From Silvibacterium bohemicum (GTDB taxonomy: Bacteria > Acidobacteriota > Terriglobia > Terriglobales > Acidobacteriaceae), in assembly GCF_001006305.1 (NCBI RefSeq), contig NZ_LBHJ01000004.1, positions 496,001-560,000 on the forward strand: a stretch of DNA of 64,000 nt, written 5' to 3'. This document shows, one piece after another, positions 55,442 to 55,707 of the stretch. The first letter of the stretch is position 1. Every line of letters begins with the position of its first letter. Made by a program: the position numbers and the translations under genes. A model generated the notes under the pieces. That model searched no databases. It saw only the letters and a list, made by a program, of their open reading frames with translations, and was not told the DNA's origin.

Positions 55442-55486
55442 ATTGTCCTTTATTCATCGCGGTGTTTGCCGAAGGGAGCGTGCAGA

Positions 55487-55537
55487 AACACGAAGGGGAA
55501 CGCTTTGCAGCGTTCCCCCTTTGTGTTGCCTTTTTTT
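55487..55537. terminator. Hairpin between rsmE and the 22-codon gene
   Basis: A long imperfect stem (about 18 bp, AACGCT/AGCGTT at its tip with loop TTGC, then GGGG/CCCC and AACAC/GTGTT) followed on the plus strand by GCCTTTTTTT. It lies 20 nt beyond the stop of the small Lys-rich gene on the minus strand, so it may close that transcript and stabilise it, but its T-run suits plus-strand termination. Confidence 0.65.
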
Positions 55538-55546
55538 ATTGCCTAC

Positions 55547-55615
55547 TTACTTCTTCTTCGCTGCCTTCTTTGCTGCCTTCTTCGCCGGTTTCTTGGCTGC
55601 CTTTTTCGTTGCCAT
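55547..55615 (-). CDS. 22-residue Lys/Ala-rich histone-tail-like peptide
   Basis: A very short gene: ATG 55615 to TAA 55547, 22 residues beginning MATKKAAKKPAKKAAK and continuing with the same AAKK repeat, 11 Lys and 7 Ala in total. It resembles the tails of histone-H1-like bacterial proteins (Hc1/AlgP type). Support for expression: a GGGAG ribosome-binding site 9 nt upstream, a consensus promoter 64 nt upstream, two strong hairpins in the leader, and a hairpin behind it. The peptide would bind DNA, RNA or other polyanions (inference). Low-complexity repeat sequence by chance is the alternative, but the signals around it argue against this. Confidence 0.7.
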   Translation of the reverse strand: MATKKAAKKPAKKAAKKAAKKK

Positions 55616-55633
55616 GGTTTCTATTCTCCCTTT

Positions 55634-55648
55634 TCGATGTGACATCGA
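55634..55648 (-). promoter_or_regulatory. Leader hairpin 2 of the Lys-rich gene
   Basis: TCGATGT-G-ACATCGA, a perfect 7-bp dyad with a single central base, lies 19 nt before the ATG, just upstream of the ribosome-binding site. It could be an operator or a translation-controlling stem. Confidence 0.55.
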
Positions 55649-55650
55649 GT

Positions 55651-55670
55651 CTGCAGCACTAATGCTGCAG
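55651..55670 (-). promoter_or_regulatory. Leader hairpin 1 of the Lys-rich gene
   Basis: An 8-bp perfect stem (CTGCAGCA / TGCTGCAG) with a 4-nt loop. It lies directly after the promoter and would be the 5' end of the RNA, a position that often protects transcripts from decay. Confidence 0.6.
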
Positions 55671-55678
55671 TTAACGAA

Positions 55679-55707
55679 TGTATAGAAGTCTGAAAAAAGA
55701 GTGTCAA
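55679..55707 (-). promoter_or_regulatory. Consensus sigma-70 promoter of the Lys-rich gene
   Basis: Minus-strand TTGACA (55702-55707, 6 of 6) and TATACA (55679-55684) with exactly 17 nt between, in an AT-rich block unlike the rest of the GC-rich window. The strongest promoter match I saw here. Confidence 0.85.

Follow-up and report, generated by a model that had tools for sequence, protein, structure and literature searches.

The minus strand of the analyzed window, a 64,000-nucleotide stretch of a Silvibacterium bohemicum contig, contains a complete small transcription unit at 55707-55486. This unit, referred to here as the cassette, consists of a promoter, two hairpins, a ribosome-binding site (RBS), a 22-codon Lys/Ala frame, and a terminator. 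The promoter, TTGACA-N17-TATACA (55679..55707), can be seen in the sequence and was aligned in 12 relatives and in 78 loci. Its -35 hexamer TTGACA (55707-55702) is separated by a 17-nt spacer from the -10 hexamer TATACA (55684-55679), and a conserved T-tract, TTTTTTC, lies upstream of it. Hairpin 1, CTGCAGCA-TTAG-TGCTGCAG, is found at 55651..55670 and hairpin 2, TCGATGT-C-ACATCGA, at 55634..55648; the latter is absent in some relatives, for example L019, L020, and L164. The RBS, AAAGGGAGAATAG with a conserved tail, is found at 55621..55633, with GGGAGAATAG at 55630-55621, and its GGGAG is kept also in genomes with no ORF behind it. The ORF, MATKKAAKKPAKKAAKKAAKKK, occupies 55547..55615, with its ATG at 55615 and its TAA at 55547. 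It is followed by a 3' untranslated stretch (55525..55544) containing two copies of AGGCAA (55544-55539 and 55531-55526), and by an intrinsic terminator, AACAC AAAGGGGGAACGC..GCGTTCCCC..GTGTTT (55486..55527), with its hairpin at 55520-55493.

All of the parts named in a first-pass annotation of this DNA were found on the minus strand, and the hairpin that it placed behind the stop is an intrinsic terminator, which also appeared terminator-like in a promoter and terminator scan. The annotation's consensus promoter is perfect in the -35 hexamer, but the -10 hexamer has only four of the six consensus bases and lacks the final T. A scan that demanded this T did not list the promoter. The cassette is more than a chance arrangement, as no second match to the extended promoter (21 fixed bases, up to three mismatches) was found in the 6.46-Mb genome and the whole cassette recurs across the family. 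A second GGGAGAATAG with an ATG is present in the genome (L235), where it precedes an unrelated 146-codon frame, and it was taken as a chance occurrence. With a promoter and an intrinsic terminator of its own, the cassette has the layout of a small autonomous transcript, judging by sequence. The 197-nt stretch 55676-55480 folds 3.6 standard deviations below dinucleotide shuffles, and none of 200 shuffles folded as well.

The cassette is found nearly throughout its family. A DNA search of 41 genomes detected it from promoter to frame in several genomes of the same genus and in other genera. A covariance model extending from the T-tract to codon 4, including the two hairpins, was built from 12 aligned relatives. 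It matches 179 of 200 genomes of the family, 135 of the 146 good-quality genomes, and 76 of the 79 genera. Three of the genomes have two matches, and each other matching genome in this search has one. In the phylum as a whole, 32 of 297 genomes match, 31 of them in the same family, but this count understates the spread because the filters were strict. Relaxing the filters gives matches in 16 of 19 genomes outside the family (f2 12/14, f3 1/1, f4 0/1, f5 2/2, and G485, from another class). Many of these E-values are weak (a genome's best match can be as poor as 0.46), and the matches are believable only because a short Lys-rich frame follows. Leaving G485 aside, 18 genomes of the order and class remain, and weaker matches with a similar promoter and a short Lys-rich frame are found in 15 of them. 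G485 was not counted because it has a lone Lys/Ala frame (L106) and its promoter is not the same. L106 has 29 codons and follows an AAAGGAG; the region upstream of it differs, and the frame may be an independent mini-gene of this kind.

A scan of named genomes with a fixed pattern returned at least 116 stretches. Of the 80 that were examined, 78 carry the mini-gene, while L179 and L182 are unrelated genes that by eye resemble recA and rplD. These 78 loci say nothing on the conservation of the RBS and the first codons, since the pattern fixes those bases. The named records among the 80 include Acidobacteriaceae, Terracidiphilus, Acidobacterium, and Candidatus Sulfotelmatobacter. Some genomes are without the cassette. 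In g52/g53 genomes L254, L255, L256, and L258 there is a clean absence, with no cassette between the upstream gene and rsmE. No cassette motif was found in L257, and L259 and L260 have another genomic context. Several g52/g53 genomes have lost the whole unit, showing that it is dispensable there. G004 was missed by the search, as its contig ends inside the cassette (L253).

Codon comparisons among relatives indicate that the frame is a real gene under strong purifying selection. A set of 118 distinct ORFs from 140 loci ranges from 12 to 37 codons in length, and 117 of them end in a stop codon, while the remaining one runs off its record. Their 2385 residues are K 1197, A 716, T 160, M 118, P 73, S 38, H 35, G 30, V 17, and R 1, and neither D nor E is present in any ORF. 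The codon test was limited to codons 5 to stop, which are untouched by the selection of any search. In 84 nearest-neighbor pairs of equal length, 282 single-change codons are synonymous and 43 are non-synonymous, with an expected synonymous fraction of 0.228 and a ratio of about 0.045; the rows are related and are not independent events, but the direction is clear. Differences at codon positions 1, 2, and 3 number 87, 50, and 337 in these pairs. No Lys was seen to change to Arg, Glu, Asn, or Gln in these pairs, even though a single base change would be enough. Together with the conserved promoter, leader hairpins, and terminator, the selection on the frame supports the earlier suggestion of a stand-alone gene missed by the usual tools. 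Ala codons have a bias of their own. GCA accounts for 179 of 292 Ala codons after Lys, 76 of 208 after Ala, and 8 of 65 after Pro, compared with about 15% in eight window genes and 7 of 33 in two long Lys/Ala frames, with kinship uncorrected and the controls few. The bias after Lys would fit RNA-level selection on AAGGCA within the frame and is a hint of it.

The composition of the peptide fits the histone-tail-like character proposed for it, with 1197 Lys and 716 Ala residues and a single Arg in the 118 ORFs. By composition it contains a Lys/Ala/Pro low-complexity stretch like those of H1-like proteins. A large group of relatives has peptides of 12-19 residues that end in KKH, with a terminal His (for example L119, L123, and L140). 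The tiny basic ribosomal proteins bTHX, bL37, and eL41 are similar to the peptide in size and charge. However, they have a fixed sequence and length and use Arg, while the cassette peptide ranges almost threefold in length and contains a single Arg in 2385 residues. With the tails of AlgP, PhaF, and Hc1/Hc2 it shares AAKKPAKK-type repeats and the lack of acidic residues; such tails are disordered and are expected to bind DNA by charge. By analogy with histone H1-like tails, the peptide most likely binds polyanions. It differs from these proteins in having no folded domain, so that a tail of 12-37 residues makes up the whole protein. According to excerpts of PMC9239181, AlgP has a 124-residue N-terminal domain and a 195-residue tail, and the AlgP and PhaF tails are involved in DNA binding and in the organization of polyphosphate granules. 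Pfam and NCBIfam gave no match for the peptide at E-values up to 1, and thus no link to a curated family of longer H1-like proteins, but this is a weak negative, as a 22-residue query can hardly score.

Both leader hairpins lie within the predicted transcript and covary as RNA. In 78 sequences, chosen by a pattern that leaves the hairpins out and aligned by fitting to the model, which favors pairing, 92% of the cells pair and 10 of the 12 pairs have changed on both sides. None of 500 shuffles scored as high, and slid structures pair at 19-50%. The operator control that the first-pass annotation considered for these hairpins thus finds no support of its own. Hairpin 1 begins about 9 nt past the -10 hexamer, so it likely sits at or beside the predicted 5' end of the transcript. 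Hairpins at the 5' end protect mRNAs from decay. Behind the frame, a perfect stem is found 16-42 nt past the stop in 97 of 115 relatives, and 80 of these have at least five T in the next 12 bases; the figure for random stretches is 3 of 506. AGGCAA is the commonest 6-mer in the 3' stretches of the relatives (48 of 97), but it is found in only 9 of 30 members of the clade with KKH/His endings, showing that it is not a universal core motif.

Some lineages have kept the RNA without the frame. The promoter, leader, GGGAG, and terminator are present without a Lys-rich frame in 29 genomes from five genera. The frame was expected to be conserved in relatives if it is a gene, and it is present in 56 of 73 model-selected family loci examined, but it is absent from the other 17, and 12 further genomes of one genus also keep the RNA without a Lys-rich frame. 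The 17 ORF-less loci belong to genera g40 (seven), g73 (six), g53 (two), g52 (one), and g43 (one). In g40 the RNA is found in 19 of 19 genomes and the frame in none. When seven start codons were allowed, no frame of at least ten codons with one-third Lys was present in any of the 30 ORF-less loci (29 genomes), while all six ORF-bearing controls were detected. A search for a relocated peptide in the ORF-less genomes, which recovered two of three ORF-bearing controls and missed the S. bohemicum cassette, gave only tails inside frames of at least 117 codons. The GTG in the g40 sequence GGTGGCAAAG was considered as a new start codon and rejected, as most of the frames examined run into the terminator and there is no shared stop.

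The phylogeny of RsmE suggests that the frame was lost more than once. In a quick tree of 46 rows, the ORF-less rows of g40 and g73, 13 in all, group together as a single long-branched clade (SH-aLRT 97) that has an ORF-bearing sister. The ORF-less g52/g53 rows are found elsewhere, among genomes without the cassette. Since several families contain ORF-bearing forms, losing the frame is the more parsimonious change. It was probably lost at least twice, and L093 may represent a third case.

The ORF-less copies might be relics that have yet to erode. The cassette would then be an ordinary mRNA encoding a polycationic peptide of the nucleoid, as the first-pass annotation supposed, or of the ribosome, and its leader would serve stability and translation only. 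This explanation is unlikely, though it accounts for part of the data. The coding selection is strong, complete loss is seen next to ORF-less copies in g52/g53, and a decayed old frame with its start codon destroyed is recognizable in five g40 loci (L095, L098, L281, L284, and L292). However, the long-branched clade of 13 has kept promoter, hairpins, GGGAG, and terminator, and relics should erode at the rate of their flanks. In the six g73 species the blocks from promoter to terminator are 61-89% identical, whereas most flanking blocks reach 0-45% (each gap scored as a difference). The best-conserved part is the single-stranded middle (TGGGAGCGCAGGCAAACGCAACCAAGGCAAAGCA), at 84-89%, and the one-base insertions and deletions in it would disrupt any reading frame. 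In six g40 sequences the cassette blocks (33-78%) are no better kept than the upstream flank (about 50-70%); the contrast is missing here because this flank is a coding gene.

Particular motifs are maintained in the ORF-less RNAs. Among 14 aligned g40 RNAs, GGTGGCAAAG is invariant in all 14 and TCAGGGAGA is nearly invariant. The covariation term in the fold of these RNAs is near zero, so the fold was given no weight as evidence of pairing, and a hairpin with the loop GGCAAAG shows one-sided changes only. Copies of GGCAA occur within 80 nt of the GGGAG in 29 of the 30 ORF-less loci, the exception being L284, which ends with its contig. GGCAAA is found in a predicted hairpin loop in both g40 and g73. 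In the ORF-less locus L243, at about 1570-1600, GGGAGAATA forms an arm of a perfect hairpin (TATTCTCC..GGGAGAATA), so that the RBS is closed there, as if it had fallen idle. Retention of the RNA without the frame in 29 genomes, along with the conservation contrast in g73, indicates that the transcript probably also acts as an RNA.

The position of rsmE raises the question of a role in cis. The cassette could be a leader or attenuator of a downstream rsmE, in which binding of a ribosome or factor chooses between terminator and read-through. A promoter, a structured leader, and a terminator do precede rsmE, which is on the same strand in 34 of the 78 named loci, on the opposite strand in 16, and not found in 28, some of which lack flank. 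In the ORF-less lineages rsmE is conserved: it follows 27 of the 29 loci tested, the other two being L093 and L284, the latter ending with its contig. The counts for the 78 named loci come from a targeted comparison of neighbors; automatic clustering was dropped since it mixed overlapping antisense frames. An rsmE leader is nevertheless improbable as a general explanation. Of the 16 loci with rsmE on the opposite strand, 15 have it about 3-4 kb away, and these encode KKH-ending peptides. No rsmE was found within 3.1 kb in L093, and none of five window neighbors, including rsmE, was found within about 1.5 kb on each side in 16 loci outside the family. The conserved same-strand downstream gene of a leader-peptide attenuator was not found over the 78 loci. 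A cis or leader role for rsmE is possible in the ORF-less lineages. A purely regulatory RNA, with a frame that arose by chance from A/G-rich repeats, would agree with the ORF-less versions and with the GCA bias after Lys as a trace of AAGGCA kept as RNA, but it is very hard to reconcile with the excess of synonymous changes, the in-frame stop at 12-37 codons in 117 of 118 ORFs, and the lack of Lys changes to Glu, Arg, Asn, or Gln in nearest pairs.

The most probable interpretation, at about 60%, is that this small, autonomous unit of Terriglobia yields two products, an RNA with its own role and a Lys/Ala polycation. The transcript would be about 190 nt long and presumably strongly expressed. 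One hairpin would stand at its 5' end and another behind it, and it would also contain AGGCAA motifs and a single-stranded AGGGAGAAUAG before ending at the intrinsic terminator. The 5' hairpin may give it a long life. The RNA itself may bind a partner, which could be an RNA chaperone (Hfq, for example) or a target that it pairs with. Genes for Hfq were found in 15 of 15 genomes tested, making a base-pairing role possible. In most lineages translation would produce a polycation of 12-37 residues, which may bind polyanions by charge alone, DNA first and RNA or polyphosphate next, in the manner of histone H1-like tails. One clade and a few scattered species have lost the coding function and kept the RNA, while others have deleted the whole unit. 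The 29 genomes that retain the RNA without the ORF suggest that an RNA function may be separable from the peptide. The nucleoid peptide gene of the first-pass annotation is probably only half of the story, as the transcript would have an RNA-level role too. A more specific version can be put forward tentatively. An old, near family-wide core RNA would bind its partner through AGGGAGAAUAG and the GGCAA loops and would at the same time encode a minimal all-lysine polycation. One clade would then show the ORF being shed to give a pure regulatory RNA, with the RBS remodeled into hairpins (L243; g40).

The closest precedent for the whole cassette, by analogy, is SgrS. Like the cassette, SgrS/SgrT and other bifunctional small RNAs, such as VcdRP of Vibrio as it is described in literature excerpts, combine a small ORF and an intrinsic terminator in one short transcript, together with an RNA-level function that the cassette probably has as well. 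SgrS also shares the loss of the ORF in some lineages while the RNA stays: excerpts of PMC4021124 describe the SgrT frame as missing in some Yersinia and disabled in E. coli O157:H7. The two systems differ in that there is no sequence relation, the SgrS model of Rfam giving no match, and in that the cassette encodes a Lys/Ala polycation and has two 5' hairpins before its ORF. The cassette also stands apart in its distribution: it is found nearly throughout one family, and weaker matches extend it to other families of the class. No Rfam family matches the locus at the gathering score, and E-values up to 5 give only three unrelated miRNA models. A literature search, with most subscription journals outside its reach, found the gene described nowhere. 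The transcript is conserved in soil Acidobacteria and undescribed; it has no name and no Rfam or Pfam entry.

In a major soil family, 179 of the 200 genomes searched have a single-copy transcript that has gone unnamed and is too short for gene finders. If the interpretation as an RNA with two products is correct, the relatives form a natural series (ORF and RNA, RNA only, and nothing) whose members can be compared to test the roles of a bifunctional RNA separately. The peptide would be about the smallest imaginable histone-tail-like protein, with Lys kept and Arg avoided.

Other Lys/Ala-rich frames were seen in these genomes. One of the cassette-bearing genomes contains a second stand-alone Lys/Ala mini-frame, L004 (G018:C131), which is 19 codons long and is preceded by a hairpin-like repeat of its own. 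The genome containing the cassette studied here has a 247-codon open frame (L272, G000:C4 near 772400-772741) with an acidic middle and a Lys/Ala/Pro-rich tail, a separate H1-like candidate. Tails similar to that of the L272 protein are present in relatives.
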